A stretch of DNA of 43,008 bases from Thermodesulfovibrionia bacterium (GCA_020057065.1 JAGVGM010000119.1:1-43008); one strand, 5' to 3'; positions 1,220 to 18,915 are shown, counted from the stretch's first letter. The notes: generated by a model not told the origin, from the sequence alone. Translations and numbers: made by a program.

Positions 1220-2767
1220 ATGGCGCAAAATCATATTGCAGAACTTGAAAAACGATTATGGGCAGTAGCCGACGAACTACGAGCCAATTCAGACTTGAAA
1301 GCGTCAGAATATTCCGCGCCGGTTTTAGGGTTGATTTTTTTGAGGTATGCAGATTATCGTTTCACCAAGCAAGAAAAGTTGCTTTCCGATAAATTAACCA
1401 GCCGCAGGAAAGTAAGCAAAACAGATTATCAGGCCGCGGGCGTGATGTATTTGCCGGATGAAGCTCGGTTTTCTTTTTTATTAAATCTACCCGAAGGCGC
1501 TGACATTGGAAAAGCGATCAACGAAGCTATGAAGGCCGTTGAACGCGAGAACGAAGATCTCAAAGGCATTCTTCCGAAAACGTACAATCGGTTCGATAAC
1601 AATCTTCTGGTTGAGTTGATCAAAGTAATGTCATCAATTCCTGAAGATATTGAAGGTGATGCTTTCGGAAAAATCTATGAGTATTTCTTGGGTGAGTTCG
1701 CAATGACCGAAGGACAGCAGGGCGGGGAGTTTTTCACGCCGACATCTATTGTTAAGTTGATTGTTTCAATTATTCAGCCATTTCACGGGAAGATATTTGA
1801 TCCGGCATGCGGATCGGGTGGTATGTTTGTCCAGAGCGCAGAATTTGTCGAAGAGCATAAAATGAAAGCCATTGATGAGATTAGTATCTATGGGCAAGAA
1901 AAAACAAGGGAGACGGTCAATCTTTGTAAAATGAACTTAGCCGTCCATGGATTATCTGGAGATGTTCTGCAGGGAAATTCATATTATGAAGATCTACACA
2001 ATATGGTTGGCGCGTTTGACTTTGTTATGGCTAATCCTCCATTTAACGTCAATCGTATTGATAAGGATCGAATTAAAAACGATCGAAAGAAATTCCCTTA
2101 TGGAATGCCGTCGGTTGATAACGGAAATTATTTATGGATTCAACTTTTTTATAGCGCACTGAATGATAACGGGCGGGCTGGATTTGTGATGGCTAACTCA
2201 GCCAGTGATGCACGTGCGAGCGAACAGGAGCTTCGTAAGAAATTAATTGAAGATAATGCTGTTGATGCGGTGATCTCCATTGGCCCTAATTTTTTCTATA
2301 CAGTGATATTGCCTTGCACATTGTGGTTTCTTGATAAAGGAAAGAAGAAAACCAAACGAAAGGACAGTGTTCTTTTTATAGATGCTCGTAGAATTTACAG
2401 TCAGGTTGATCGGGCACACCGCGAGTTTCGTCCTGACCAGATTGAGTTTCTTGCGAATATTGTCAGATTGTATCGTGGCGAAGCCATCGAAACTGTGCAT
2501 GGAAGTGAAAAACTAATGAAGGAAAATTTTTCAAAAGGAACATATCAAGATGTTGCCGGTCTTTGTAAAATTACCAGCTTGAATGATATTGCGAGTCAGG
2601 GATTAAGTTTGAACCCGGGGCGATATGTTGGCGTTCTTGAGGAGGAAGGGGATGGGTTCGATTTCAAAGAGCGACTCGAAGTATTGAATGAAGAATTGGG
2701 AGTGCTTAATTCTGAGGCCAGAGAATTAGAAAATATGATTGCCACTAATATGGCTAAATTGCTTTGA
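1220..2767 (+). CDS. hsdM: Type I restriction-modification system, DNA N6-adenine methyltransferase subunit (system 1)
   Basis: The 515-residue HsdM is of normal family length. Residues 1-140 are the helical HsdM N-terminal domain ([33 protein letters not shown]). The SAM-binding motif I is [11 protein letters not shown], and the catalytic motif IV is NPPF at N272-F275, as expected for N6-adenine methylation. [12 protein letters not shown] is the usual linker into the methylase fold. The protein pairs with HsdS to methylate the bipartite target and with HsdR to restrict unmodified DNA. An SD (GAGAGGAA) precedes the ATG. Its stop lies just before the hsdS start, and all three hsd genes are intact and contiguous. 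Confidence 0.95.
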
Positions 2768-2787
2768 AGGATAGAACGGAAATTCGA

Positions 2788-4080
2788 ATGAGAAGACAAA
2801 GGATAAAAGATTTATCTAAGAAAATCACAAAAGGAACCACGCCTACAACGGTGGGATATTCTTTTTCTGAATCTGGTGTTAACTATATTAAAGCGGAAGC
2901 GATAACCAGAGAAGGAAGAATTGATAAAAGCGTATTTTGTTTTATCAGTGAAGAAACTCACAATGCTTTAGCTCGATCTCAACTTCAAGCCGATGACATA
3001 TTAGTTTCGATTGCAGGTGTGTATTTGGGCAAGTCCGCTGTCATGAAGAAAGAGTATCTACCGGCTAATGTTAACCAAGCAGTAGGGATAGTTCGGATTG
3101 ATCAAAGTAAGGCGCATCCAAAATTTGTACATTATACTTTTCAAACACCTAAAGTTAATCAACTGCTAAATAGCCTGTGCCCTCAAGCCGCCCAACCAAA
3201 TCTTAATTTGACTTCGTTAGGTTTATTTGAAATCGAGGTTCCAGAATTATCAGTTCAAAAAAAAGTTTCTGGAATATTATCTACATATGATGACCTTATC
3301 GAAAATAACCGTGTCCGTATTCAGATTCTTGAAGAAATTGTTCAGAGAATTTACCGAGAGTGGTTTGTTGATTATCGATTCCCGGGGCATGAAAAGGTAA
3401 AGTTTATTGATTCTGAAATGGGCAAAGTACCAATTGGGTGGCAAGTTGTAACTATCGGCGATGTCATTGATAGCATTGAATCCGGGTCACGGCCCAAAGG
3501 TGGGATTGATCCAAACGAAACAGGCATACCTAGTATAGGGGCGGAGAACGTTTTGGGTCTTGGGCAATATGAATTTGAGAAAGAAAAATATGTTTCTAAG
3601 AATTTCTTTAATGGTATGAAGAGAGGCGTTATTAAGAACGGAGATGTTCTTTTATACAAGGACGGTGCAAAAATTGGAAGAAAATCAATGTTCCGTGATG
3701 GGTTTCCTCATGAGATATGTTGCATTAATGAGCATGCATTCATATTAAGAACAAATTCAAGGTGCTCGCAAAACTATTTATATTTTTATTTGGATCGTCC
3801 AGATACAACGCAGAAGATTATTGGATTGAATGCAAACGCCGCTCAACCGGGAATTAATCAGCCAGGAGTTAAAGGATTGCCTTTTATGTTGCCTGAGAAG
3901 TGGCTGATCGATTTATTTGATACACAGGCTGAACCTATACTTAGGTTATTGTTCAATTTGGCAAAGAAAAACAAGTGTCTGAGAGAAAAGAGAGAAATGC
4001 TTCTTCCGAGGTTGATCTCCGGAGAGGTGGATGTTTCCATGATGGATATAGCAATGAGGGAGCAAGCGGATGTCGCCTAA
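2788..4080 (+). CDS. hsdS: Type I restriction-modification system, DNA specificity subunit (system 1)
   Basis: This is an HsdS with two target-recognition domains, roughly residues 1-160 and 210-370, separated by conserved helices (SVQKKVSGILSTYDDLIENN, EEIVQRIYREWFVDYRFPG). The C-terminal helix ends with the family's typical MLLPRLISGEVDV. The two domains together determine the bipartite DNA target, which cannot be read from sequence. I chose the ATG at 2788, 7 nt after a weak GGA. A TTG at 2764 that overlaps the hsdM stop would add eight residues and is possible. The gene's last 11 nt overlap hsdR. Confidence 0.9.
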   Translation: MRRQRIKDLSKKITKGTTPTTVGYSFSESGVNYIKAEAITREGRIDKSVFCFISEETHNALARSQLQADDILVSIAGVYLGKSAVMKKEYLPANVNQAVGIVRIDQSKAHPKFVHYTFQTPKVNQLLNSLCPQAAQPNLNLTSLGLFEIEVPELSVQKKVSGILSTYDDLIENNRVRIQILEEIVQRIYREWFVDYRFPGHEKVKFIDSEMGKVPIGWQVVTIGDVIDSIESGSRPKGGIDPNETGIPSIGAENVLGLGQYEFEKEKYVSKNFFNGMKRGVIKNGDVLLYKDGAKIGRKSMFRDGFPHEICCINEHAFILRTNSRCSQNYLYFYLDRPDTTQKIIGLNANAAQPGINQPGVKGLPFMLPEKWLIDLFDTQAEPILRLLFNLAKKNKCLREKREMLLPRLISGEVDVSMMDIAMREQADVA

Positions 4081-7000
4081 AGACGGAAAATATTCAGAAG
4101 ACGCTTTGGTAGAGAGACCGGCAATCGAATTGTTCGATCAGCTGAAATGGTCGGTTCAAAATTGCTTCCATGAATTTGATGAAAACGGAAAAAGCTCGCT
4201 CGGTCGTGAAACGAAGGCAGATGTCGTTATAGTTTCCAAACTCAAACCGATATTGAGGGAGCTTAATTTTGATGTTTCTGCTACGGCAATCGATGAGGCA
4301 ATTAAAATATTAACTGCTGATCGTAGCTTGATGAGTATGGTTGCGGCGAATCGAGAGGTTTACGAGCTACTTAAAAACGGGATACTGGTTTCGTATTTGA
4401 ATGATAGACATGAGCAGGTATCGGAGAGGGTCAAAGTTATCGATTGGGTCAATATTGATAACAACGACTTCTTCCTCGCTTCCCAGTTTTGGATCACTGG
4501 CGAAATGTATACACGAAGGGCGGATCTTATAGGGTTTGTTAACGGAATTCCGCTTTTATTCATAGAGCTTAAGGCGTCTCATAAAAACCTCAAGAAGGCT
4601 TTTGATGATAACTTGCGGGACTATAAAACTGCAATCCCGCAGGTGTTTTGGTTTAACGGATTGATTCTCTTGTCTAATGGAAGCAAAAGCCGGGTCGGGA
4701 CTCTATCGGCTGAATGGGATCATTTTGGCGAGTGGAAGCGTATCAATAGCGAAGGCGAAAAGGGGATAGTATCTCTTGAGACGATAATCAGAGGCATTGG
4801 CGCGCGGGATCGACTCTTAGATCTGGTCGAGAACTATGTCGTATTTAAGGAAGAGAAGAACGGGCCCATAAAGGTATTTGCCAAGAACCATCAATATTTG
4901 GGCGTTGAAAATGCTATACGCGCCTTTCACTCGATGAAAGAAAATCAGGGGCGACTGGGCGTTTTCTGGCATACGCAAGGATCAGGCAAATCAATATCTA
5001 TGATTTTCTTTTCTCAGAAGATATTACGCAAAGTGCCCGGGAATTGGACTTTCGTTGTAGTGACAGACCGTACGGATTTAGATGATCAAATTTATAAAAA
5101 CTTTGTCCGATGCGGAGCCATAAAAGGTAAGCAGGAGCGGGCGGAGTCGGGAGCTGATTTGGTTCAGCTACTAACCGAAGATCATCGGTATGTATTTACT
5201 ACGATTCAAAAGTTTAGAACGGAGAAAGGTAAACCACATCCAGTTATCTCTAATCGTCAGGATATCATCGTAATGACCGATGAGGCGCACAGAACCCAGT
5301 ACGACACTTTCGCTTTGAATATGCGGAATGCCTTACCGAAGGCTGGATTTATCGGCTTTACCGGCACACCCCTGATTTCCGGTGAAGAGAAAACCAAAGA
5401 GGTTTTTGGCGATTATGTTAGCGTTTATAACTTCAAACAGGCAGTGGATGACAAGGCAACTGTTCGGCTCTTTTATGAGAACCGTAAACCAAAAGTTCAA
5501 CTTGTGAATTTAAGTTTGAATGAGGATATTCAGCAGATATTGGAAGATGCAGAGCTTGACGAGGCCGAGCAACGTAAATTTGAACGAGAGTTTTCCAAGG
5601 AATATCAGCTTATCACCACAGAAGATCGACTTGATGACGTAGCGCAGGATATTGTAGTTCATTTTATGAACCGTGGTTTCATGGGCAAGGCGATGGTGGT
5701 GTCAGTCGATAAAGCGACCGCTGTCAAAATGTATAACAAGGTCAAGCGGTTTTGGGATGAATACGCCGTTAAACTTCAAAAGGACTATGAGAAGGCGACT
5801 GATGTCGAGAAGGATGAGCTTGGCGATAAGCTCATCTATATGAATCAAACCGATATGGCGGTGGTCGTGTCGCAGTCACAAAATGAAATTGAGGATCTAA
5901 AAGCCAAAGGCGTAGATATTGCACCGCATCGCAAACGAATGAATAAAGAGGACTTGGACGAAAAGTTCAAGGATCCAGATGATCGTCTGCGCATCGTATT
6001 CGTCTGCGCCATGTGGATGACGGGATTTGATGTGCCGTCATGTTCTACGATTTACCTCGATAAGCCAATGAAGAATCACACTTTGATGCAAACCATTGCG
6101 CGAGTCAACCGCGTGTTTGGTGAATATAAGACGGTCGGGTTGATCGTTGATTATATTGGCGTTCTGCATAATTTGAATAAGGCATTGGCTATCTACGCGG
6201 CACCGACTGCTGATGGTGGGATTGATACGCCAATTGTCGAAAAATCAGAACTTATCACACAGCTTCGCAAAGATATTCAAGAGATGGTGGAGTTATGCGA
6301 TGAATGGGATATTTCTTTGCCCGAAATCATGACAGCAGAAGGTCTGGCATGTGTTGGGCTGATAGATGATGCGGTTGAATGTATTTTGGAGAATGACGAG
6401 CGGCCAGCGCAGTTTCGCGAGAAGAACGCTTATATTCAAAACACATACCGGGCAATTCTTCCGGATGTTTCAGCAAGCGAGTTTCAGCCGGTAGTCAAAT
6501 TATTGCAGGTACTGGCAGAGAAGCTTGCTTCAATCTCGCCAACGGTTGATATTTCCGACGTGCTTGAGCAGATCTCTGATCTTCTTGATAGATCGGTTAA
6601 GGTTACGGCAAGGCATGTTTCAGATCAGCGTGGTGAATATAAGGCAGGACGTATTCTTGATCTTGGGAATCTGGATTTCGACAAGTTGCAAGAACAGTTC
6701 AAAAAGGGTCGAAAGCGCATATTAGCGGAGCAACTCAGAAAAGCGATCGAGGTCAGGTTACATGCCTTGTATATGCTCAATAAGATGCGGATTAACTACA
6801 TGGAAAAATTCCAGCAGTTAATTGATGACTATAACGCCGGGTCAATGAACGTCGAAGAATACTACCGCAGGTTACTTGAGTTCGTGAAAGGCTTAAATGA
6901 TGAAGAGAAGCGGTCGCTTTCTGAAAATTTGACTGAAGAGGAGCTGGCCATTTATGACTTACTGGTGAACCCGCCAGTCAAAATGACGCAGAAAGAAGTA

Positions 7001-7243
7001 CTTGCGGTTAAAAAGATCGCTCATGAGTTATTGGAAAAAATTAAAAGAGATAAGTTGGTTTTGGATTGGCGTAAGAAACAACAATCTCGTGCGGCAGTTA
7101 AGCTTTGCATTGAAGAAACTCTTGGAGAGTTGCCGCCCGCATTTAACGATGACTTATACCACCAGAAGTGCGGGCTTGTTTATCAGCATGTATATGAAGC
7201 CTACGTAGGGTGCGGGAAGAGCGTTTATGCTCATGAGGCATGA
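4070..7243 (+). CDS. hsdR: Type I restriction-modification system, restriction/translocase subunit (system 1)
   Basis: The 1057-residue HsdR resembles the EcoR124I (type IC) group. An N-terminal PD-(D/E)xK endonuclease site is visible as RADLIGFVNG followed by LLFIELKA. The motor follows: Walker A TQGSGKS with K307, DEAH box at D404, GFTGTPL as motif III, and a second RecA lobe ending in QTIARVNRVFG. A long helical C-terminus (about 800-1057) would dock to the methylase. It hydrolyses ATP to pull DNA and cuts distant unmodified DNA. The start ATG at 4070 overlaps hsdS and has GAGGGAG upstream. All motifs are intact, so the system is probably active. Confidence 0.95.
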   Translation: MSPKDGKYSEDALVERPAIELFDQLKWSVQNCFHEFDENGKSSLGRETKADVVIVSKLKPILRELNFDVSATAIDEAIKILTADRSLMSMVAANREVYELLKNGILVSYLNDRHEQVSERVKVIDWVNIDNNDFFLASQFWITGEMYTRRADLIGFVNGIPLLFIELKASHKNLKKAFDDNLRDYKTAIPQVFWFNGLILLSNGSKSRVGTLSAEWDHFGEWKRINSEGEKGIVSLETIIRGIGARDRLLDLVENYVVFKEEKNGPIKVFAKNHQYLGVENAIRAFHSMKENQGRLGVFWHTQGSGKSISMIFFSQKILRKVPGNWTFVVVTDRTDLDDQIYKNFVRCGAIKGKQERAESGADLVQLLTEDHRYVFTTIQKFRTEKGKPHPVISNRQDIIVMTDEAHRTQYDTFALNMRNALPKAGFIGFTGTPLISGEEKTKEVFGDYVSVYNFKQAVDDKATVRLFYENRKPKVQLVNLSLNEDIQQILEDAELDEAEQRKFEREFSKEYQLITTEDRLDDVAQDIVVHFMNRGFMGKAMVVSVDKATAVKMYNKVKRFWDEYAVKLQKDYEKATDVEKDELGDKLIYMNQTDMAVVVSQSQNEIEDLKAKGVDIAPHRKRMNKEDLDEKFKDPDDRLRIVFVCAMWMTGFDVPSCSTIYLDKPMKNHTLMQTIARVNRVFGEYKTVGLIVDYIGVLHNLNKALAIYAAPTADGGIDTPIVEKSELITQLRKDIQEMVELCDEWDISLPEIMTAEGLACVGLIDDAVECILENDERPAQFREKNAYIQNTYRAILPDVSASEFQPVVKLLQVLAEKLASISPTVDISDVLEQISDLLDRSVKVTARHVSDQRGEYKAGRILDLGNLDFDKLQEQFKKGRKRILAEQLRKAIEVRLHALYMLNKMRINYMEKFQQLIDDYNAGSMNVEEYYRRLLEFVKGLNDEEKRSLSENLTEEELAIYDLLVNPPVKMTQKEVLAVKKIAHELLEKIKRDKLVLDWRKKQQSRAAVKLCIEETLGELPPAFNDDLYHQKCGLVYQHVYEAYVGCGKSVYAHEA

Positions 7244-7278
7244 TTCTTTATTTGAAATAATACGGGAGGAGAATACCG

Positions 7279-9993
7279 ATGAATAAAAGAAATTGTTTCG
7301 TCATTCTGCAAAATAGGGAGGAATCCCAATATAATGATTTCATAGGGAAGTTTTATCATTTTCCAAAGAAATATATTAAGCAGCTATCGCAGGATAATAT
7401 CGAGTTTGTTTATTACGAACCGAAGAAAAAAGGTGAAGGGGTGTATTTTGGCTTTGGGAAAATAGGGAAAATCTTTGAAGATAAAAAAGAGCCGGAACAT
7501 TACTTCGCCGAGATCGTTGACTATAATTCGTTTTCCATAGAGGTTCCTTTTTTAGATGGTCAGGGGAATCGCCGAGAAACTGGTCCAGGGTTTAACATTC
7601 AAAATTCCGTGCGATCGATAGATTCGGGACTATTGGATGAACTATGCTTGGATGGCGGAATAATTTTAAATATTGAGTCCGATGCGCATTTAATAAAGGT
7701 TTTGGGAGAACAGCTTATCGGTTCGGAACGGGTCGGTATTCTTGAGTTAGTTAAGAATGCGATCGATGCTCAAGCTTCTTACTGTCGTGTTCGATTAGAA
7801 AAAATAAACACTCTGGAAGATGTGGACGCGGATCAATATAAATTCAGTGGTTATGACGGGCCTGTCATAGTAATTGAAGATGACGGTATCGGTATGACGC
7901 AAGAAGTAATCCGAAACGGTTGGCTGAGACCGGCATCTCCGATTAAAACAAGAATAAAAGAACGATTACGAAAAGAACGAGCGAGCGCATTGGAAAAAGG
8001 GAATTTAGGGTCTTACGATGCATTGCTTAAACAAATAAAAAAGGAACATGGAGGTAGAATCCCCCTTGGAGAGAAAGGGGTTGGCCGCTTTGCGACGCAT
8101 CGACTAGGAAGGTTTCTGGAGTTGAGAACTAAAGCAAAAGATATGCCTTATGAATTGGTCTTGAAAATAGATTGGGATAAATTTGACAATTTAACAGAGC
8201 AATTTGTGAATTTAAACAGCATCGGCGTTAGTCTTTGTAGAGAAAAGCCACAGCGAGATTATGGAAAGAATCAATCCGGTACTCGTCTGATCATTTATGG
8301 CGGTCGTGAAGGTTTTAAATGGGATGCAAAAGAAATCCAAGATCTTAACAAATCGATCTTGAATATCAATTCGCCACGCTATAAATCAAAAATAATACCT
8401 GTCGAAGGTAATGCTCCAACTCTTGTTACGCTTGAATGCCCGCAGCTGAAGTCAGAATTGCCTAACTTCTTGCCCTATCAAGAGGCGACGCCAAATTTCA
8501 CTTTTGATGCTTTAATAAGTGCAAATGGCACCGTTGATGAGTATGAGTTAAAGTTTAAGCACCCTGAAGATAAAGTTCCTGAAGATTCATGGAATGGTAA
8601 AAATATTGATTTACGAGTTCATAAAGATCCGAAGTTCTGGCTTGAAGCAGGCGAAATTCGTAAGCCGACTTGTGGAGCTTTTTATATTCATTTGGATGTT
8701 TGGTATAGAAAGAAAGAATGGATCAACATAGAAAATTGGAAAGATTTAACGGATTATTTAGACGATTTCGGTGGGGTTGCTGTTTATCGTGACAACGTTC
8801 TCATGGTTGATACTAAGATTGGAGCAGAACACGATTGGCTGAAGCTTAATGAAGAACGGATTAAGCAAGCATTTAAAATATCTTACCGTGATTTCATCGG
8901 TAGTATTGAAATTGAGCAGTCAAAGAATTTCGAATTAATTGATAAAACCAATCGAGAAGGATTAATTGAAAACCAGGCGTTTAAAGATCTTTCTTGCCTG
9001 GCAAAGAATGCCGTAAATCAGTTGCTGTTGCCTAGATATATGGCAAAGCGTGATGACTTTGAAAAATTAACTAAAGGGGTAATTACCGATACGTCAACGT
9101 TATCAAAAGTAGCCAAGACCTCCGCTACGTTTTTTGATAACGTTTCGAAGAGCAAATACGCTTTGGATTCGGATCCTTATGGTTTCTTCTCTGAATTGTG
9201 GCAAAAGACAGAAGATCGGCGGGGTGGTTTAGTTAATTTGAGGGATTCGATGAAAGAGCTTCAAAAAAGCGTAAAAATGATTGAAGACACTCAAGAATTA
9301 TTTGTCGAACAGGCAGGGTTCGGTATTGCGATTGCGATTTCACTCCATGAGATCAATAAAATCACATCTAATTTTTATCATGGCATTGCCAGTTTAATAA
9401 AAAGCGGGGACTTTAATAAGGTGAAACTTGAGGATTTGCAAGAGACCTCGGCTTCACTTCGAACCGAATTGAAAAGACTTGGGCCTCTTAGGGCGATAAG
9501 GAATGAGGATCCGACCGAATTTAATATTGTTAAGGTAATCAAATATGTCTCCGAGATTTATAAATTAAAAATGAAAATTGATGGGATTTCGTTTCAGATT
9601 ATGAATCCTGATGACGATTTTGTTTTGTTCGGTCAGTGTTCAAGAATAAATCAAGTGTTCGGAAACCTTTTCGATAATAGCATTTATTGGATTGACCGGT
9701 CACGTAACAAAGATAAAAGAATTGCCGTTCTGTTGGACAAAAAACATAGAACCGTTGTGTTTTCCGATTCGGGAACCGACGTTAGCGAAATAATTCGGCC
9801 TTATTTATTTCAAGCGAGTTATAGTTTAAAGACGCCTCCGAGTGGCCTAGGTCTTTATATCTGTAGAACTTATTTGAATTCTTTAAAGGGGCGGATTTAT
9901 GAAACACCTTCTAAGGATCGGATTAACGGATTGGTTGGTGCGCATTTTACCGTAGATTTCGCTAAATCGCCGGATAAGAGAGGACAATTATGA
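7279..9993 (+). CDS. Protein with two GHKL ATPase domains (MORC/Hsp90-like plus histidine-kinase-like)
   Basis: This 904-residue protein has two separate GHKL sites. The first resembles MORC/Hsp90/MutL ATPases: ELVKNAIDA (E156, N160), DDGIGM (D202-M206) and GEKGVGRF (G264-F271). The second, at the C-terminus, is kinase-like: NLFDNS (N796-S801), SDSGT (D830) and SGLGLYICR (S855 on). An ISLHEINKI segment with H690 sits where a histidine kinase carries its phospho-acceptor helix. No transmembrane segment is seen, so it is cytosolic. GGGAGGAG precedes the ATG. It lies 35 nt after hsdR and overlaps the receiver-like gene by 4 nt. Bacterial MORC-type ATPases are known from predicted restriction systems that also carry methylases and Vsr nucleases. 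I infer an ATP-driven sensor or DNA-clamp role. Confidence 0.8.
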   Translation: MNKRNCFVILQNREESQYNDFIGKFYHFPKKYIKQLSQDNIEFVYYEPKKKGEGVYFGFGKIGKIFEDKKEPEHYFAEIVDYNSFSIEVPFLDGQGNRRETGPGFNIQNSVRSIDSGLLDELCLDGGIILNIESDAHLIKVLGEQLIGSERVGILELVKNAIDAQASYCRVRLEKINTLEDVDADQYKFSGYDGPVIVIEDDGIGMTQEVIRNGWLRPASPIKTRIKERLRKERASALEKGNLGSYDALLKQIKKEHGGRIPLGEKGVGRFATHRLGRFLELRTKAKDMPYELVLKIDWDKFDNLTEQFVNLNSIGVSLCREKPQRDYGKNQSGTRLIIYGGREGFKWDAKEIQDLNKSILNINSPRYKSKIIPVEGNAPTLVTLECPQLKSELPNFLPYQEATPNFTFDALISANGTVDEYELKFKHPEDKVPEDSWNGKNIDLRVHKDPKFWLEAGEIRKPTCGAFYIHLDVWYRKKEWINIENWKDLTDYLDDFGGVAVYRDNVLMVDTKIGAEHDWLKLNEERIKQAFKISYRDFIGSIEIEQSKNFELIDKTNREGLIENQAFKDLSCLAKNAVNQLLLPRYMAKRDDFEKLTKGVITDTSTLSKVAKTSATFFDNVSKSKYALDSDPYGFFSELWQKTEDRRGGLVNLRDSMKELQKSVKMIEDTQELFVEQAGFGIAIAISLHEINKITSNFYHGIASLIKSGDFNKVKLEDLQETSASLRTELKRLGPLRAIRNEDPTEFNIVKVIKYVSEIYKLKMKIDGISFQIMNPDDDFVLFGQCSRINQVFGNLFDNSIYWIDRSRNKDKRIAVLLDKKHRTVVFSDSGTDVSEIIRPYLFQASYSLKTPPSGLGLYICRTYLNSLKGRIYETPSKDRINGLVGAHFTVDFAKSPDKRGQL

Positions 9994-11354
9994 CGCAAGC
10001 CCGCAGGTTTTCTATATGTCTTTTAGACGACAAAATACCTTTATCGTTGGATTCAGGGTTGATTGATCATCGCGAGTTGAGTAGTTTGATTTTAGACGAT
10101 ACTAAATGGAAAGATGCCGAGTTGTTATCGCTTGTTAAACAATTGGATTCCAAGAAAGACAGCTACATTCTTTCCGGTTTTTTGCATTGCGATCACTTTC
10201 TTAATTATATCGATGAGGTGATTTTTAGTCCGGACATTATTATTTTTGATTGGGATTATCCCGCAGGGTCGTCACCGGAAGATGCATTGTTTAAAATATT
10301 GGAGTCTCAATTTTCCCAGGTCTTCATTTTTACAGGAGTTGATGCGGAAGGTGCCGTGGATAATGTGATCGCCAAAGAAAAATTTAAGCAGTATGAAAAC
10401 AGAATTAAATTAATAAAAAAGAGCGATACAAATAGCGTTGATGATTTAAAAAACAAAATTGAATCTTCGCTGAACATATTTTCCTTTAAATACAGTAACG
10501 AGCTAAAACGAAAAACCCTTAGAGGGGTGGATTTGATTTTAAGTTCATTGGAGCAATTGTCTTTCGATGAGTTTATAAGGTTTTTTGGTGAGAAAATAAC
10601 TGAAAATGGGGTGACGTCTCACAGGCTGTCTTCTTTCGAATTTACCGAGATTATCGCAGATAAACTAAAAGCAAGATTAATCGACATCGGAATGGATGAG
10701 GATCCCGCACCTGTGCCGGATGGCGCGCACGCGATGAGCGAAAATCTTATGCGTGAAATATGGGGTTTCCGACTTTATCATCAGCCGAAGGACGGGGTGG
10801 TCAGAAGAGGGGATATTGTAGAAATAGCGGGGCGCAAAGTATTGATTATGTCCTCAGACTGTGATTTATCGCGATTCTGGCAAAAAAACATGGGATGCCT
10901 AATGGTAACGCCACTTTTAAGAATAGATGACGTAAGCTTTAAAAGTGATTTGAACGTCTTTAACAATAGAAGCATTGACAATTTTAGCATATCTTCTCTT
11001 ACTAATCCTCGAGGAATTGAATGTTTTACTGTGTTGCCAGGTCTTGAGATTGAAGATAATGCCGGGGTGAGAAAATATTTAGATTACATTGTTGCAGCCA
11101 AAGCAACGTATTCGATTGCCATCAAAAAACCTGATACGGTTACCGATGTTAAGAGCGCTCTTAGATATGAACATATAGATGGGATTGGAGATTCCTTTGA
11201 GACGCGAAAAAGAGTAGCAGATCCGTTTTTAACGCCATTGATTCAGTTCATCGTGGAAAATTTGACGGGGCTGGGTGTTCCAGATTTCCCCAAAAGTCTT
11301 AGCGATGACTTAAAAACAAAAATTATAGGACTTAAGAATAATGCCGGAACATAA
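9990..11354 (+). CDS. Receiver-like (response-regulator-type) protein with an uncharacterised C-terminal domain
   Basis: The first ~150 residues follow the receiver-domain layout: an acidic pair (LLDDK, D13-D14), a strand with a candidate phospho-acceptor (DIIIFDWDYP, D87), a threonine after the next strand (IFTG, T115), and a lysine in LIKKSD. The spacing is stretched by an insertion near residues 20-60. Residues 240-454 form a second domain with GDIVEIAGRKVLIMSSDCDL around residue 285. I cannot place this domain in a named family, and it is not a standard DNA-binding output domain. Start overlaps the GHKL gene (ATGA) and the end overlaps the methyltransferase, so the three are translationally coupled. 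The kinase-like domain upstream is the obvious phosphodonor candidate; this is inference. Confidence 0.7.
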   Translation: MTQARRFSICLLDDKIPLSLDSGLIDHRELSSLILDDTKWKDAELLSLVKQLDSKKDSYILSGFLHCDHFLNYIDEVIFSPDIIIFDWDYPAGSSPEDALFKILESQFSQVFIFTGVDAEGAVDNVIAKEKFKQYENRIKLIKKSDTNSVDDLKNKIESSLNIFSFKYSNELKRKTLRGVDLILSSLEQLSFDEFIRFFGEKITENGVTSHRLSSFEFTEIIADKLKARLIDIGMDEDPAPVPDGAHAMSENLMREIWGFRLYHQPKDGVVRRGDIVEIAGRKVLIMSSDCDLSRFWQKNMGCLMVTPLLRIDDVSFKSDLNVFNNRSIDNFSISSLTNPRGIECFTVLPGLEIEDNAGVRKYLDYIVAAKATYSIAIKKPDTVTDVKSALRYEHIDGIGDSFETRKRVADPFLTPLIQFIVENLTGLGVPDFPKSLSDDLKTKIIGLKNNAGT

Positions 11355-12372
11355 GTTTAATGCCATTGATTTATTTGCTGGATGTGGAGGCTTGTCAGAA
11401 GGACTACGACAAGCGGGTTTCCGTACAATAGCGGCATGTGAAATAGATCCGGTTGCCGTAGCGACATATAGAATTAACCATCCGGATGTTTTTGTCTTTG
11501 AGAAGGATATTAAACAAGTGGATCCTTCTGAAATAAAGAAAATTTTGAAAGATGAGCCGCTTCATTTGTTAGCTGGCTGTCCTCCATGTCAGGGCTTTTC
11601 TTCTTTGAGAAGGTTGAATAAAAAAAGGTCGGTGCGAGATGGACGCAATTCATTGGTCGATGAGTATTACCGATTTATAGAAAAACTTAGGCCGTTAACT
11701 ATCATGATGGAGAATGTGCCAGGGTTGCAAAATTATTTCAAATTTCAGGATATGATTAAGAAATTAGGAAGAATGGGGTATCGACTTGATACTGCGGTTG
11801 TTAACGTAGCCGATTACGGAGTGCCTCAGCGGAGGAAAAGATTGATTGTTGTAGGTTCTTTGCTTAATGAAATAAAAATTGCACCCGGTGTAAATATTAA
11901 GAAAACGGTAGCAATGTGTATCGGTTCCATTGAATCTATACAGGAAACGAAAGATCCGCTGCATAAAATAGTAGCGAAACATACTGATAAGATAATGGAG
12001 ATGATTAGATTAATACCTAAGAACGGCGGTAGTCGAACTGAATTGCCGAAAAAATATATTCTGGAATGTCATAAGAGAGAAAATGTCGGATTCAATGATG
12101 TCTACGGTCGGCTTAAATGGGATGATTATTCATCTACTATAACTGGCGGTTGTCTTAATCCTTCGAAGGGGAGATTTTTACATCCGTCTGAGCATCGAGC
12201 TATTACTGCGCGTGAGGCGGCGCTGTTGCAAACTTTTCCTATGGATTATGAGTTTTCGACAAATGCAACCAAAACTAAAATTGCATTAATGATAGGGAAT
12301 GCATTGCCTCCGGAATTTTGTCGTTTGCAAGCGAAGAATATACTGGATCACTTGGTTGTTAATTATGGCTGA
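11341..12372 (+). CDS. DNA (cytosine-5)-methyltransferase
   Basis: A complete 343-residue C5-cytosine methylase. Motif I is DLFAGCGGLSEG near the N-terminus. Motif IV is GCPPCQGFSS with catalytic C83. Motif VI is MMENVPG (E124-N125-V126). Motif VIII is VPQRRKR (Q163-R165). Motifs IX-X appear as AREAALLQTFP and IGNALPP. The target-recognition region between VIII and IX is short (about residues 180-280), typical of a single-specificity enzyme. It adds a methyl group to C5 of cytosine in a site that cannot be read here. Start overlaps the receiver-like gene by 14 nt. The following vsr gene overlaps its stop, matching the common dcm-vsr pairing. Confidence 0.95.
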   Translation: MPEHKFNAIDLFAGCGGLSEGLRQAGFRTIAACEIDPVAVATYRINHPDVFVFEKDIKQVDPSEIKKILKDEPLHLLAGCPPCQGFSSLRRLNKKRSVRDGRNSLVDEYYRFIEKLRPLTIMMENVPGLQNYFKFQDMIKKLGRMGYRLDTAVVNVADYGVPQRRKRLIVVGSLLNEIKIAPGVNIKKTVAMCIGSIESIQETKDPLHKIVAKHTDKIMEMIRLIPKNGGSRTELPKKYILECHKRENVGFNDVYGRLKWDDYSSTITGGCLNPSKGRFLHPSEHRAITAREAALLQTFPMDYEFSTNATKTKIALMIGNALPPEFCRLQAKNILDHLVVNYG

Positions 12373-12781
12373 TATCTTTTCTCCGAGCAAAAGAACCGAA
12401 ATAATGAAGAATATTCGCACGAAGGATACCGGATGCGAATTAGTTGTTAGGAAAATGATTTATGCCATGGGGTATCGCTATCGTTTAAATAAAAGAAATT
12501 TACCCGGGAAGCCGGATATTGTATTTGGTGTACGCAAAAAAGTAATATTCGTTAACGGTTGTTTCTGGCACGGTCATTCGAGATGCTCAAGAGGAAAATT
12601 GCCCGAATCAAATGCATCTTTTTGGCAAAAAAAGATTACCGGAAATGTGGTTCGTGACGGCAAGATATTGAGATCATTGAAGAAATTGGGGTGGAAGAGT
12701 CTCGTTGTTTGGCAGTGTCAAACAAGTCCAAAGGGCGACTCTAAGTTAAAGCGTCGGATTGAGAGATTCTTAGAGAAATAA
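12365..12781 (+). CDS. vsr: Very short patch repair (Vsr-type) DNA mismatch endonuclease
   Basis: The 138-residue product is full length for the family. It opens with MADIFSPSKRTEIMKNIRTK, the usual Vsr N-terminus, then GKPDIVF with the catalytic D51 and NGCFWHGH with H69 and zinc-ligand residues. E. coli Vsr has His at position 64; here the aligned residue is Asn. Vsr nicks at T:G mismatches made by deamination of 5-methylcytosine, although Vsr-fold proteins beside orphan methylases can also act as the restriction nuclease. I chose ATG 12365, which overlaps the methylase stop. A longer frame from 12299 lies wholly inside the methylase. Confidence 0.9.
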   Translation: MADIFSPSKRTEIMKNIRTKDTGCELVVRKMIYAMGYRYRLNKRNLPGKPDIVFGVRKKVIFVNGCFWHGHSRCSRGKLPESNASFWQKKITGNVVRDGKILRSLKKLGWKSLVVWQCQTSPKGDSKLKRRIERFLEK

Positions 12782-13932: not shown

Positions 13933-14286
13933 TTATTTATTGGTCTCAATAAGATCAATCAATGCCTGTCCATCAACAGGTTTTTGTAGAAACCCCACAG
14001 CCCCTACTTTTAAAGCACGGTTGGCATTGTCTTGGTTGTCGGCAGAAATAAAAATAATCGGACGTTTTGATCCAGAATCAAGAATTTTTTTCTGTACTGC
14101 CCAACCGTCTAATACCGGCATACGAATGTCCAGAATTAAACAACCGGGCGCATCACTGGGTACGGCATCAAAAAAGCTTTTTGCGGAATTAAAAGTTTTT
14201 ACGTTAAACTCATAAGTCATTAAGAAAGTCTTGAGGGCGCGGCATATGGACTCGTCGTCATCCAGAATATAAATATCGTAAGGCAA
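13933..14286 (-). CDS. Single-domain response regulator (receiver domain only), 117 aa
   Basis: This is a stand-alone CheY-like receiver: acidic pocket ILDDDE (D9-D11), phospho-acceptor D53 in LILDIRMPVLDGW, S81 in FISAD and K102 in LQKPV. It lacks an output domain, so it would act by protein-protein contact or in a phosphorelay. I place the start at a TTG (14286), exactly 6 nt after a perfect GGAGGTG. The alternative ATG at 14301 would put that SD inside the coding region. No kinase gene is adjacent. It is divergent from the methyltransferase at 14533, with a palindromic promoter between them. Confidence 0.85.
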   Translation of the reverse strand: MPYDIYILDDDESICRALKTFLMTYEFNVKTFNSAKSFFDAVPSDAPGCLILDIRMPVLDGWAVQKKILDSGSKRPIIFISADNQDNANRALKVGAVGFLQKPVDGQALIDLIETNK

Positions 14287-14342
14287 TTTCAGCACCTCCA
14301 TAAATGATTTTATGTTATTATCATTTAAATGCTAAATTCAGT

Positions 14343-14364
14343 CAATTATACCTTGGTATAATTG
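14343..14364. promoter_or_regulatory. Perfect palindrome carrying divergent -10 boxes
   Basis: CAATTATACC (14343-14352) and GGTATAATTG (14355-14364) are a perfect 10-bp inverted repeat with a 2-nt centre. Each arm contains a TATAAT (plus strand 14357-14362, minus strand 14345-14350), so one element can serve both the receiver gene on the left and the methyltransferase on the right. The plus copy has a TTGG extension fitting an extended -10. Both -35 regions are weak. It may be a symmetrical promoter, an operator, or both. Confidence 0.5.
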
Positions 14365-14532
14365 TATTGTTGTTGCGGTTTAATTAAGTTCTTTGCACTG
14401 GTTCTTTAGCGGTAAGTTTTAACAAGTTCTTAATACGGATTTGCCGATCGTTAGTGGTTGGCATGCCAGTAATTCGAGCAGGTGGGGTTGGCTCCGATAA
14501 AGGTGGACATTGGGAAGTGTTGGATTAGCGTT

Positions 14533-15111
14533 ATGAAGATACGAGACAGTGGTATGCCGGACAAAGGTATGTGGGAAGGGTTTTTCTCTCCCAGCAAGAT
14601 ATTGGAGACGCTCGGGTTCAATAGCGGCGTTAGCGATGCTGTGGAATTCGGATGCGGTTATGGGACGTTTACGATTCCGGCCGCCAAGATGATCTCCGGC
14701 AAGTTGTTTGCGTTAGATATAGAGACGGAGATGGTTGAGGCGACAAAAGGCGCGGCGGCTAAAGACGGGATTAAGAATTTGGAAGCCATCATCCGTGATT
14801 TTATGGCAGAGGGAACCGGTCTGAAAACCGAAAGTGTGGATTACGCGATGCTTTTTAATATCTTGCATCTTGAGGATCCTGTCAGCCTGTTGTTGGAGGC
14901 CAATAGAATCTTAAGAAAAGGCGGCAGGGTCGGCATCATTCACTGGAATTATGATCTGGCAACGCCGCGCGGGCCTTCAATGGATATCCGGCCTAAGCCG
15001 GAAAATTGCATTGAATGGGCAACGACGGCCGGTTTTGTAGATCCGAAACGATTTGATTTAAAGCCGCATCATTATGGGATAGTCATGACAAAAAAAGGAC
15101 AAAAGAAATGA
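14533..15111 (+). CDS. Class I SAM-dependent methyltransferase
   Basis: A 192-residue Rossmann methyltransferase. Motif I is AVEFGCGYGTF, the acidic end of strand 2 is LFALDIETEM, and post-motif II is YAMLFNILHLEDP; a RILRKGGRVGIIHW strand follows. This is the Methyltransf_11/25 pattern of UbiE-like enzymes, which methylate small molecules; the substrate is unknown. I selected ATG 14533 (GGA 9 nt upstream) over a GTG at 14482, since residues before MKIRDSG look non-domain. Its stop overlaps the next start (ATGA), so it is co-expressed with the DsrE-like protein. Confidence 0.8.
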   Translation: MKIRDSGMPDKGMWEGFFSPSKILETLGFNSGVSDAVEFGCGYGTFTIPAAKMISGKLFALDIETEMVEATKGAAAKDGIKNLEAIIRDFMAEGTGLKTESVDYAMLFNILHLEDPVSLLLEANRILRKGGRVGIIHWNYDLATPRGPSMDIRPKPENCIEWATTAGFVDPKRFDLKPHHYGIVMTKKGQKK

Positions 15112-15428
15112 AGATAGGAGTCATAATTTCGAGCAATGACGCGGAGACGTCTTGGAACGCGCTTCGATACGCAAACTTTTGTCTTGGGCAAAAAGACGAG
15201 GTGAAGGTATTTTTAACCGGTAAGGGCGTTGAATATCAAAAGATCAGTACTGAGAAGTTCAACACGGTTGAGCAGGCAGAGAAATTGCTTCAGGCCGGAG
15301 GCAAGATACTGGCGTGTGGAACGTGTATTAAGTCCCGGAATCAGGAAGGCACCGAAATGTGCCCGATCAATACGATGAAGGACATGTACGAGATTATCAG
15401 GGAGAGTGATAAAGTCGTTACGTTTTAG
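15108..15428 (+). CDS. DsrE-family protein, 106 aa
   Basis: A small alpha/beta protein of the DsrE/DsrF-like superfamily: MKIGVIISSNDAETSWNALR opens the fold, EVKVFLTGKGV is the second strand, and ILACGTCIKSR carries the cysteine pair typical of the sulfur-relay branch (compare TusD/DsrE). Cys residues in ACGTC and EMCPI could carry persulfide. It overlaps the methyltransferase by 4 nt and ends 10 nt before the fluoride riboswitch. A methyltransferase plus DsrE pair suggests sulfur or metalloid chemistry, but the sequence does not show which. Confidence 0.8.
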   Translation: MKIGVIISSNDAETSWNALRYANFCLGQKDEVKVFLTGKGVEYQKISTEKFNTVEQAEKLLQAGGKILACGTCIKSRNQEGTEMCPINTMKDMYEIIRESDKVVTF

Positions 15429-15435
15429 TAAAAAA

Positions 15436-15501
15436 TTGGCGATGGAGTTCGCCGTTAACCGCCTCAGCAGGCTAATAACTCCTACTTTAAACAAAAGGAG
15501 G
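15436..15501 (+). promoter_or_regulatory. Fluoride riboswitch (crcB RNA) with SD-sequestering expression platform
   Basis: The aptamer matches the crcB motif: stem-loop GGCGATGGAGTTCGCC (15438-15453), the conserved AAC, a second stem GCCT/AGGC (15461-15464 with 15469-15472), then CTAATAACTCCTACT. The pseudoknot pairs GGAGT (15444-15448) with ACTCC (15478-15482). Four of those same bases, in CTCCT (15479-15483), can instead pair with the SD AGGAG (15496-15500) of crcB. Fluoride binding would stabilise the pseudoknot, release the SD and turn translation on. Fluoride riboswitches upstream of crcB are well established; the mutually exclusive pairing is read directly from this sequence. Confidence 0.95.
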
Positions 15502-15510
15502 TATTAGATT

Positions 15511-15897
15511 ATGTTGAGGCTTTTTGTTATTGCGGTTGGCGGTGCGATCGGCACGCTTTTGCGTTACCTCATGGGCGGGCTTGATTACCGGTTTTCAAGC
15601 GGAGTTTTTCCGGTAAGTACGTTGGTTGTGAATGTAACCGGATCCTTGGCGATAGGTTTCTTATGGAGTATCGTTGATCGTTTCAATTTTTCGCCGAACG
15701 TGAGGATGTTTGTCTTCATAGGCATTCTTGGCGGCTATACAACATTCTCCACGTTCAGTCTTGAAACTTTTAACCTGATGAGAGACGGTGAGTATCGGAT
15801 TGCTCTTATGAATGTGATTCTTTCGGTCATCTTGAGCATCGGTGCCGTATTCTTGGGATACTTTGCTTCCAAAGTGCTGTTGAATATATATAAATGA
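15511..15897 (+). CDS. crcB: Fluoride channel/exporter CrcB (FluC)
   Basis: The 128-residue product has four transmembrane helices and the family signatures GGAIGTLLRYLMG in helix 1, VNVTGSLAIGFLW in helix 2 with the pore asparagine, and GGYTTFSTFSLET in helix 3 with the phenylalanine box and sodium-site residues. FluC works as an antiparallel dimer in the inner membrane and lets cytoplasmic fluoride leave. AAGGAGG sits 9 nt before the ATG and is the SD controlled by the riboswitch. It is followed 13 nt later by a DUF190 gene. Confidence 0.97.
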   Translation: MLRLFVIAVGGAIGTLLRYLMGGLDYRFSSGVFPVSTLVVNVTGSLAIGFLWSIVDRFNFSPNVRMFVFIGILGGYTTFSTFSLETFNLMRDGEYRIALMNVILSVILSIGAVFLGYFASKVLLNIYK

Positions 15898-15910
15898 AGG
15901 GGGTGGCAAA

Positions 15911-16243
15911 ATGAAATTGCCTGAAGAAGGAATGCTTTTGCGGATATTTATTGGTGAATCAGATAACTATAAGGGCAAAGCTCTTTACGAGCAAATTGTT
16001 ATTAAAGCGAGAGAGATGAATCTTGCGGGGGCAACTGTGACACGAGGCATTATGGGGTTTGGGGCAGATAGCCGAATGCACACGGCGAAGCTATTGCGTC
16101 TTTCCGAAGATCTTCCCGTGGTGATCGAATTGGTTGATACTGAAGAGAATCTTAATAAGTTACGGCCTTTTCTTGATGAGGTGGTAGAGGAGGGATTAAT
16201 TACGCTCGAAAAGGTTAGGGTGATTAAATATCGGCATAAATAA
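15911..16243 (+). CDS. DUF190 domain protein, 110 aa
   Basis: The single DUF190 domain (GlnB/PII-like ferredoxin fold) covers the protein: LLRIFIGESDNYKGKALYEQ, GATVTRGIMGFGADSR and PVVIELVDTEE are the family's conserved blocks. DUF190 proteins are very often encoded beside crcB, so a link to fluoride sensing or FluC regulation is likely but unproven. It is 13 nt behind crcB with GGGGGTGG as SD and should share the riboswitch. Its stop is only 3 nt from the stop of the converging recombinase gene, so a mobile element's edge abuts it almost exactly. Confidence 0.92.
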   Translation: MKLPEEGMLLRIFIGESDNYKGKALYEQIVIKAREMNLAGATVTRGIMGFGADSRMHTAKLLRLSEDLPVVIELVDTEENLNKLRPFLDEVVEEGLITLEKVRVIKYRHK

Positions 16244-16246
16244 TTG

Positions 16247-18295
16247 TCACCGGTTGTGGATGGTTTTGATATAAGATTGACGTTGTTCAGGGGTGCTTAG
16301 TCCGGCAATTCGTAGCAGGGTTTTACCGGAAAATCGTTTGATTAAGGATTGATCTTCAGTGGTTTTCATGATAGAAATAAAGTCATCCGGGAGCTTTTCG
16401 ATGATGGTCATCAGCTGGGATACCCTGGCCCGGGTTACACCGAAATGGTTGCCAGCGGCAGTTTGTGTTCTTTGAGGGTTTTCGACCAGATATTCCTGAA
16501 CTCGGATGGCCATGGCTACGATATTCTTGTAGACTGGCGGGGGCGGCAGGGGCCGGGAGGGCAAGGGATCGTATAAACTGATGGAAGTGCCTCGGCCGCG
16601 GTGCCGGTACATCTTCACAAGTATATGTATTTCCTTGCACTTAGAGAGGTGTCTCTTGTAGTGTTCTGCGTCCAGCGTGGGGAGCCAGTTAGACGTCTGA
16701 CAGCGGATTTCTTCGTTGTCAGATTTACATAGTTCAAGTAGCCCTGTGTCGGGTTGACGCCCATACAGGGCTATTTGTATTTTGGTGGGGCTTAATATGG
16801 CTTTGTGTAGGACAAGCCGCATCATATCCTTCTGGCGGTATGGCTTTATCTTGTCAAAAAGGTCTGTAAAACGGTTAAGAGCCAGCATTATCAGCTCTTT
16901 ATTGATTGATTCCCGCTCGATTTCTTTGATCATGGTCTCAAGCGAGGCAATACCGGTTTCTATTTCTTTCCTGCGCTGGCCAAGCTCATTCAGTTTCTCA
17001 TTTAAGAAAATACTGCTCTCATCTGTGGCCATAGCAGTCCATTTATTCATTATCCCATCAGCAAAGGCCTTTACTTCGGCCAGTTCTTTTTGGAGATGGG
17101 TTTTTCTATGTTTAAGCTGCGGTAGTTCTTTCATTAGCTTATCATTGGTATGAGCTATGAGTTTTTCCATAAGCCCTGAGTCTGACGATAAGTACTTAAT
17201 GCGCTCAATGATGACACGTTCTATCTCTTCAGCCGGGAGTTTAAACCTGCAGTCTTTGTTTTTGCAGATATAGTAAAAGTATTTACTGCCCCGCTTCCCG
17301 GTTCCGCAGGTCCCTTCCATTTGAGCACTACATTTACCACACCACAAAAGCCCGCCGTTAAGAATATAAGAGTGTTTTATTATCTTTGTGCCGTTATGCT
17401 TGGTTTTGGTGTTTTGTTTGAGAAGCTTATGGACATTATAGAAGGTCTCTTCATCTATCACTGGCTCCCATACAGCTTTGACTGTTCTGTAGCGTTCTTT
17501 TTCCGTGAGCTTGGCCTGATCCTGTAGTTTTCTTTTTTTGTTTATCTCTTTCAGGCCGATATAAGCGCAATTAACTAATAGTTGTTTCATGGATGATCGG
17601 CCGAATTTCTCAGGGGTGCGAAATTTACCCCTTCGCGAGGTATAGCCTTTGGTGCGATAACCGTTATCATTAAGGGCCCGGGCTGTTCCCATAAGCGAGC
17701 CGCATTCAAGGTATTTTTTAAAGGCGAATTGAACGAGTGATTTTTCTTTCTCACTTACGATTGGGTAGCCTTTACGGTTAGGATCAAGGTCAAAGCCTAA
17801 CAAATGCCCGCCATTCCATAGGCCGCGTTCGGCTCTTGCGAGCGTGGCTTCTTTGTTGCGCTCGGAGGTCTGCGTCCGCTCAAATTCAGCCAGAGCCATC
17901 ATTATCGTTATAAACAGTTTTCCTTGCGATGATGTGGTGTCATAGTTCTGCTTCAAGCAGACAAATTCCACGTCATACTTATTGAGTATCTCAAAGAAAT
18001 TCAAGAAGTCTCTGACAGAGCGACTTATGCGGTCAAGGGCAGTGCATATGATAGTGTTTACCTTGCCTGATTTTATGTCCTCAAGGAGTTGGGCAAATTC
18101 AATGCTTCGGAAGGAGTCTTTACCGGATATGCCTTTAAGGACATATCTTCCAGTTTCAATCCAGTGCTCCTCGCAGGCAGTCTTTTTATATTCGATATGG
18201 GCTTGTAGCCGCTGGAGCTGGTTGGTAAGCGAGCCCTCAGGGTTCCGGGCCTGCTTATCTGTGCTTACCCTTATCACAAATCCGCATTTTTTCAT
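16247..18295 (-). CDS. Large serine recombinase with an extra C-terminal helix-turn-helix tail
   Basis: A resolvase catalytic domain (about residues 1-150) carries the nucleophile S11 in FVIRVSTDKQ and ALDRISRSVRDFL. The recombinase domain (about 180-310) follows, then a zinc ribbon with CGKC and CKNKDC near 340-370 and a coiled coil (about 390-480). This is the large serine integrase layout, which joins attP and attB without a host factor. Beyond it lies a tail with VQEYLVENPQRTQTAAGNHF, a ParB/KorB-like HTH. Start: ATG 18295 after GGAAG; ATG 18310 or a TTG at 18349 that overlaps the upstream stop are alternatives. It is the likely integrase of the island to its right. Confidence 0.9.
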   Translation of the reverse strand: MKKCGFVIRVSTDKQARNPEGSLTNQLQRLQAHIEYKKTACEEHWIETGRYVLKGISGKDSFRSIEFAQLLEDIKSGKVNTIICTALDRISRSVRDFLNFFEILNKYDVEFVCLKQNYDTTSSQGKLFITIMMALAEFERTQTSERNKEATLARAERGLWNGGHLLGFDLDPNRKGYPIVSEKEKSLVQFAFKKYLECGSLMGTARALNDNGYRTKGYTSRRGKFRTPEKFGRSSMKQLLVNCAYIGLKEINKKRKLQDQAKLTEKERYRTVKAVWEPVIDEETFYNVHKLLKQNTKTKHNGTKIIKHSYILNGGLLWCGKCSAQMEGTCGTGKRGSKYFYYICKNKDCRFKLPAEEIERVIIERIKYLSSDSGLMEKLIAHTNDKLMKELPQLKHRKTHLQKELAEVKAFADGIMNKWTAMATDESSIFLNEKLNELGQRRKEIETGIASLETMIKEIERESINKELIMLALNRFTDLFDKIKPYRQKDMMRLVLHKAILSPTKIQIALYGRQPDTGLLELCKSDNEEIRCQTSNWLPTLDAEHYKRHLSKCKEIHILVKMYRHRGRGTSISLYDPLPSRPLPPPPVYKNIVAMAIRVQEYLVENPQRTQTAAGNHFGVTRARVSQLMTIIEKLPDDFISIMKTTEDQSLIKRFSGKTLLRIAGLSTPEQRQSYIKTIHNR

Positions 18296-18345
18296 TATCT
18301 TATCTTCCATATCAACACAAACCCTATAATATGAAGGGCAACAAG

Positions 18346-18561
18346 TCAAGCTGAATCAACCTGCTCGACGGGTGGTTCTGTAAGCGCCTTTGTCTCCTCA
18401 AGAAGGGCCTCAGCCTGCCTTTTTCGCTCCGGGCACTCTTTTAAAAGCCCCTGGTCCTTCAAATATGCGTATAAGCCATCGGAGAGGATGTCAATAAATG
18501 CCTCGTTCCATTTGGCTTCGTCCTCAATCGGTATATAGGATATTTCGATTTTCTCCATCAT
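18346..18561 (-). CDS. Small recombinase-associated protein, 71 aa
   Basis: This acidic 71-residue protein (YIPIEDEAKWNEAFIDIL near the start) lies immediately upstream of the recombinase, and its stop touches the recombinase's possible TTG start. Small acidic genes in this position are common beside large serine recombinases and may be directionality factors or repressors, but I recognise no named family. GAGAGAAG precedes tandem ATG codons at 18561/18558. It is transcribed away from a long inverted repeat that separates it from the replication genes. Confidence 0.65.
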   Translation of the reverse strand: MMEKIEISYIPIEDEAKWNEAFIDILSDGLYAYLKDQGLLKECPERKRQAEALLEETKALTEPPVEQVDSA

Positions 18562-18682: not shown

Positions 18683-18913
18683 ATGAAGGATAAATATTTT
18701 GAAGCAGGCAATATCTACCTTGCAACCTATCTTGTGTCTCAGGGGTTTGTGATGCGCGGGATTTCTGGATCAGGCAGATACAAGCGGGTTTTATTTGATA
18801 ATACCTCTGAGGTAAAATCAGCCTCAGATAAATTTTTCAGTGATTCGGAGGTGCAAAAGATTTTTAATTGCTACCGAAGAGTAAAGGACTTTATATTTCA
18901 GAACGGAGTGTAA
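18683..18913 (+). CDS. DUF5659-like small protein, 76 aa
   Basis: The sequence reads KYFEAGNIYLATYLVSQGFV, then a central GSGRYKRVLFDNTSEV, then a helical FFSDSEVQKIFNCYRRVKDF. This resembles DUF5659 proteins, which are small, and are common in phage, plasmid and integrative elements next to replication genes. The function is unknown. SD AAAGGTAAG precedes the ATG. The stop is 2 nt before the ATPase gene, so they form one operon reading away from the recombinase. Confidence 0.6.
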   Translation: MKDKYFEAGNIYLATYLVSQGFVMRGISGSGRYKRVLFDNTSEVKSASDKFFSDSEVQKIFNCYRRVKDFIFQNGV

Positions 18914-18915
18914 CT

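Follow-up and report, generated by a model that had tools for sequence, protein, structure and literature searches.

The window analysed here is a 43,008-nt stretch of DNA from a Thermodesulfovibrionia bacterium. Positions 7279-12781 hold four overlapping genes on the plus strand. These encode a 904-aa fusion of a GHKL/MORC-like ATPase with a histidine kinase (HK, 7279..9993), a 454-aa RR-like receiver protein (RR, 9990..11354), a 343-aa C5-cytosine DNA methylase (11341..12372) and a Vsr mismatch endonuclease (12365..12781). Successive genes overlap by 4, 14 and 8 nt. A ribosome-binding site for the HK (GGGAGGAG, 7264..7271, plus strand) lies within the 36-nt gap that follows hsdR. The Vsr ORF as listed opens at 12299; its match to TIGR00632 begins only at ORF residue 23, and the ATG at 12365 is therefore taken as the start. 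An initial annotation of this DNA had described the same four genes and overlaps, and its coordinates hold. The methylase carries the catalytic cysteine of its PCQ motif (Cys83, codon 11587-11589), which is the C83 of that annotation, and an ENV motif at residue 124. No nuclease gene other than Vsr is present in the module.

The surrounding region is a defence island or hotspot. A complete type I restriction-modification (R-M) operon, hsdM-hsdS-hsdR (1220-7243), ends 36 nt before the HK, and a second set in the order R, M, S occupies 24204-29631, so two type I systems are encoded within 43 kb. Also present are an AbiEii-type nucleotidyltransferase of a type IV toxin-antitoxin system (21860-22885), followed by a small ORF and then a RadC-like gene (23485-24195), and a 700-aa large serine recombinase (16247-18349, minus strand) that could possibly mobilise the island. 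Two other island proteins (1187 aa, 30176-33739; 553 aa, 18868-20529) match nothing in Pfam or PADLOC at the thresholds used. We considered whether the upstream type I genes belong to the module and rejected this, as no HsdM, HsdS or HsdR is found near any close relative. Lying next to two type I systems is not in itself proof that the module serves in defence. A single-domain receiver protein of 122 aa (13933-14301, minus strand) lies 1.1 kb from the module, with no evidence of a link to it.

Domains of the kinase and its receiver partner

The HK combines an N-terminal reader-like domain, a MORC-like GHKL/S5 ATPase, DHp-like helices and a HATPase_c domain. Pfam identifies HATPase_c_3 at residues 153-309 and HATPase_c at residues 788-893, both in one soluble protein; no PADLOC model matches it. 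Residues E156, N160, D163, D201, G203 and G205 of the first GHKL ATPase (7684..8205) are invariant in an alignment of 21 HKs, as are N796, D830, G832, G856 and G858 of the HATPase_c catalytic domain (9511..9963). Between the two lie long DHp-like helices (9208..9498) with the phospho-acceptor candidate H690 (codon 9346-9348). The pair H690-E691 is invariant in 21/21 HKs and has the form of an H-box, a DHp histidine followed by an acidic residue.

An AF2 model of the HK has a mean pLDDT of 76. Its DHp helices are poorly modelled (pLDDT 36-50), and the assignment of a four-helix bundle therefore rests on conservation and homology. By structure search, the C-terminal half resembles HK853 (from HK853-RR468 complexes) and the N-terminal half resembles SMCHD1, MORC and Hsp90 family ATPases. 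The two GHKL regions proposed from the initial reading are thus supported alike by Pfam, model and invariant residues, and its key residues H690 and E156 proved invariant among the HK relatives.

The first 127 residues of the HK (7279..7659, plus strand) form a domain that is beta-rich in the model and is named by no domain library; Pfam, including EVE (PF01878), gives no match. Residues 15-94 match the N-termini of HNH endonucleases. The same domain is found at the head of HNH endonucleases encoded on rhizobial plasmids (38 plasmid records; one pair aligns at E 8e-17), and a profile comparison of the HK head with the HNH nuclease head gives an E of about 1e-10, so this homology is solid. The HNH part of one such rhizobial nuclease has VcaM4I (EVE-HNH) and TagI (SRA-HNH) as its nearest structures in the PDB. 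Both are modification-dependent enzymes whose head is a PUA-superfamily base reader (PMC7897488). A direct profile comparison with EVE proteins keeps the HK head in register, but the match is weak (E 0.006, probability 6%). From these relationships and the beta-rich model, we infer that the head is likely a PUA/EVE-like modified-base reader. Unlike the EVE-HNH and SRA-HNH endonucleases (PMC7897488 for VcaM4I), the HK fuses this domain to a kinase and has no nuclease domain.

An N-terminal extension of this kind is absent from most HK relatives. When the domain is left out of the tree, the HKs that carry it still group as one clade (support 100), and so share a single-clade origin. The reader-like head defines this clade and is new relative to the elements described in PMC8011034.

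The RR has no match in Pfam, NCBIfam or PADLOC. In its model (mean pLDDT 82), a (beta-alpha)5 domain leads into helices and then a mixed domain. The first part (receiver domain, 9990..10484, plus strand) matches receivers in Foldseek (probability 1.00, TM by target 0.7-0.76), and D13, D87 (codon 10248-10250) and K144 are invariant in 18 RRs, which is the receiver quartet minus the Thr/Ser position. Fold and residues thus bear out the earlier description of this gene as receiver-like with D87 as its candidate acceptor, and both phospho-site candidates, H690 and D87, are intact here and invariant in relatives.

The C-terminal output domain (10707..11354, plus strand) is unmatched in fold and has invariant residues W258, R261, Y263, D275 and C291. 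RR partners further removed also carry it, and all except one of these are encoded directly after an HK; many distant RRs have other C-termini. The domain matches no DNA-binding family, Foldseek matches beyond the receiver are poor, and a search of a viral library returned nothing useful. Two candidate likenesses were set aside. The long alignment to LqsR (TM 0.34, rmsd 17.8) is not interpretable. A PemK/MazF-like barrel, prompted by the pattern GDIV...KVLIMSSD...GCLMVTPLL, is unsupported by profile comparison with PemK proteins (E 0.09-0.27).

Relatives and conserved neighbourhood

Relatives were sought with profile guidance across 84,980 species genomes and in viral contigs. Full-length HK relatives at 40-62% identity were identified in L021-L035, L037, L045, L049 and the viral contigs L101 and L102, besides many distant relatives. 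The HK relative in L036 is cut by a contig end, and counts of 20 close relatives refer to loci that keep sequence beyond the HK. Single-protein searches of plasmids (with the RR), viral contigs and E. coli returned no close relatives; alignments are therefore needed to find them.

The close relatives occur in Bacteroidota, Ignavibacteriota, Aminicenantes, Planctomycetes, Alphaproteobacteria, Desulfovibrio and one Lokiarchaeota MAG. Because contigs in MAGs may be binned wrongly, we are unsure of the archaeal occurrence. Six genomes of the same genus carry neither the HK nor the RR, and the module is therefore accessory. The reader-headed clade is highly mobile and widely transferred. L101 and L102 carry the full HK-RR-methylase module and Vsr on contigs classed as viral in IMG/VR, which could be prophage cargo or host flank.

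A C5-methylase is found in the neighbourhood of 20/20 close relatives and a Vsr in 14/20, which answers the question of co-occurrence with the HK/RR pair raised in the initial annotation. The RR is the next gene after the HK in 19/20 by phmmer; the remaining locus, L033, has a DD-bearing ORF there that phmmer does not detect. In L028 and L033 the RR is apparently split into two ORFs. Among distant HKs, at least 46/57 are directly followed by an ORF with the receiver signature under a strict pattern. Chance is excluded for the gene set because the same set recurs in relatives across many phyla. With family counts as the neighbourhood control, a methylase would be expected by chance within about 15 kb at roughly 0.3-2% of places (the phylum sample averages about 0.5 C5-methylases per genome; this genome has five); one lies near the HK in 18/19 close and 36/61 distant genome loci.

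The pairwise distances of all four proteins are correlated (r 0.52-0.83), with Mantel r values of 0.83 for HK-RR and 0.61 for HK-methylase (permutation P about 0.0005). HK, RR and methylase thus stay together and co-diversify. The gene overlaps support co-transcription of the ATPase and receiver genes with the C5-methylase, as had been proposed.

Some loci depart from this layout. In L038 (Streptomyces) and L039 (Schekmanbacteria), a double-GHKL HK is followed by a very long ORF (1302 and 1876 aa) where a receiver protein would otherwise stand. In L029, a 650-aa ORF (14016-15968, minus strand) joins a TraG/T4SS coupling protein to an in-frame partial Vsr domain, possibly a recombination joint.

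Placement among known systems

Soluble proteins with HATPase_c_3, HEF_HK and HATPase_c domains, encoded beside Response_reg_2 proteins, have been described in more than 600 strains (PMC8011034; Bellieny-Rabelo 2021). C5-methylases are enriched around these elements, and Vsr accompanies them in 20 genera. The pairs were predicted to form a two-component-like system; the suggestion was that they control R-M systems and derive from paraMORC (PMC8011034). The phospho-signalling character of the locus, which the initial annotation took to be undescribed, was therefore already on record in 2021 for such pairs beside C5-methylases and Vsr. In the later literature searched, we found no functional use of the names HEF_HK or Response_reg_2. 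We know of no input or output for the published elements.

The window pair shares with these elements a soluble HATPase_c_3, DHp-like and HATPase_c protein beside a receiver-like protein and the link to C5-methylase and Vsr; it differs in its extra reader-like head, undescribed in PMC8011034, and in lying outside both Pfam models. The window HK does not match PF19191 (HEF_HK), which 6/21 clade members match weakly (best E 0.0038). Likewise, the window RR does not match PF19192 (Response_reg_2), which 8/18 clade members match weakly (best 25.5 bits vs a cut-off of 27). In a profile comparison, both ATPase halves of the window HK align with those of a Pantoea HK from a PF19192-type pair (E 1e-30). 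The direct comparison of the window RR with the Pantoea Response_reg_2 protein is weak. The window pair is homologous yet outside both models, and we are therefore highly confident that it belongs to a divergent sister clade of the HEF_HK/Response_reg_2 type rather than being a strict member.

GHKL ATPases of the MORC and paraMORC type have been linked to C5-methylases and Vsr-type nucleases (PMC2292703; Iyer 2008). The window module resembles these R-M operons in its N-terminal GHKL+S5 ATPase with C5-methylase and Vsr-family nuclease. It lacks their SF2 helicase or novel restriction endonuclease. Its histidine-kinase half is complete and comes with a receiver partner; neither is mentioned in PMC2292703. 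The Shedu type I-D protein VcSduA, a paraMORC3-type GHKL protein, is experimentally confirmed as anti-phage without a phosphorelay (PMC12137116). There, too, a GHKL ATPase controls an antiviral output, a role that would be parallel here, but VcSduA carries a PD-(D/E)XK nuclease in the same polypeptide, whereas the window module has a separate receiver partner.

On four plasmids (L007, L008, L010 and L014), a double-GHKL HK is followed by a partner of 670-715 aa that has a receiver-like start. These pairs adjoin genes of the phosphorothioation kind (PAPS reductase, cysteine desulfurase, DUF4007 or FtsK). Two recent surveys of phosphorothioation systems, in the parts reached by a term search, make no mention of an HK/receiver pair. 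With HK/RR beside C5-methylases in some loci and phosphorothioation-type genes in others, the kind of DNA mark that accompanies the pair varies. Detocs is a defensive two-component system in which histidine kinase and receiver proteins are used for defence. The window module differs from it in sensor architecture and in having a methylase, and no nucleosidase effector was recognised in the RR. New here are the reader-like head, the apparent dispensability of Vsr and the broader HK/RR family beside phosphorothioation genes.

A possible signalling route and its alternatives

We put the chances at about even that these genes form a methylation-coupled cytosolic two-component module, in which a phosphorelay reads the modification state of DNA and switches the RR output domain. 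The reader head and the MORC-like GHKL+S5 ATPase of the HK, probably closing on DNA as a dimeric clamp, would sample DNA. Self would carry the mark written by the partner C5-methylase, and an invader would show a wrong or absent modification state. The sampled state, via ATP-dependent closure, would set autophosphorylation of H690; the phosphoryl group would pass to D87 of the RR, and the phosphorylated RR would switch its C-terminal domain, which may act on either the invader or the cell itself. Vsr would travel with the methylase and repair T:G mismatches from deaminated 5mC. The defence-island setting is suggestive of a defence role for the module.

A stronger form of this proposal is possible, if doubtful. 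The HK input would be the DNA modification state directly, with a PUA/EVE reader and MORC clamp driving a His-Asp relay whose receiver bears a novel output domain. Two-component signalling, not a nuclease, would then act on self/non-self marking, and the marks would be C5-methyl or phosphorothioate, depending on the member. If true, one module would link two-component signalling with epigenetic marks on DNA and with MORC-type ATPases. The reader-like head gives elements of the HEF_HK/Response_reg_2 type a specific input to test, either 5mC or some other mark on the bases. The invariant H690 and D87 allow clean mutants, and the compact set of methylase, HK, RR and optional Vsr could be transferred to a laboratory strain.

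The initial annotation had read the locus as phospho-licensed restriction, a MutL/Vsr-like type II variant in which HK and RR license Vsr to cut unmethylated DNA. The 8-nt overlap in the operon, the presence of Vsr in most close relatives and its co-diversification with the HK (r 0.62) are in keeping with this, as is the proposal that Vsr-family nucleases with MORC/paraMORC proteins are restriction enzymes (PMC2292703). However, no Vsr was found within the available sequence of 6/20 close relatives (L025, L030, L031, L033, L035 and L049). In L030 and L031 that sequence covers 10 kb on each side; the L033 contig ends, and L025 has a partial match about 7.5 kb away. Where Vsr is present, it may lie downstream, upstream or on the opposite strand. 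In this genome 5/5 C5-methylases adjoin a Vsr, with or without HK/RR, so that the arrangement typical of very-short-patch repair occurs in the window and at the other four C5-methylases alike. Across 61 genomes of the phylum, 21/23 Vsr matches are close to a C5-methylase. E. coli Vsr serves Dcm by mismatch repair. In the present case, the place of Vsr beside all five methylases of the genome, its variable position and its absence from six relatives argue for a methylase-serving repair function and not for a dedicated cutter. We consider the licensed-cutting reading unlikely: judged by gene content and order, Vsr looks dispensable in the module and appears to be a repair companion of the methylase. 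What stands of the earlier interpretation is the soluble HK/receiver pair with intact phospho-sites, the MORC-type GHKL ATPase and the C5-methylase linkage; its novelty and the role given to Vsr are not supported. Neither observation that it had named as refuting was made, since the neighbourhood is conserved and both the receiver fold and the two GHKL regions are present.

We regard as similarly improbable a classical regulatory function, close to the suggestion in PMC8011034 that such pairs control R-M systems. HK and RR would respond to the state of DNA or nucleotides by regulating transcription, either of the methylase operon or of host genes, without direct antiviral action. The canonical HK and receiver signatures would fit, and small Xre-like HTH ORFs, reminiscent of R-M controller proteins, lie close upstream of the HK in L021, L028, L030, L031 and L032. 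Yet the C-terminal domain of the RR has no match among DNA-binding families, and the reader-headed clade is highly mobile and found in defence islands or viral contigs. It is very unlikely that the HK is instead a MORC-like structural ATPase, an ATP-driven DNA clamp whose kinase half and receiver partner are allosteric dimerisation parts without phosphotransfer. The MORC/SMCHD1/Hsp90-like half of the HK model would suit such a function, and both the paraMORC proteins (PMC2292703) and VcSduA, which is anti-phage without a phosphorelay (PMC12137116), provide precedent. A purely structural role, however, would not require H690-E691, N796 and D830 of the HK and D13, D87 and K144 of the RR, all of which are invariant.
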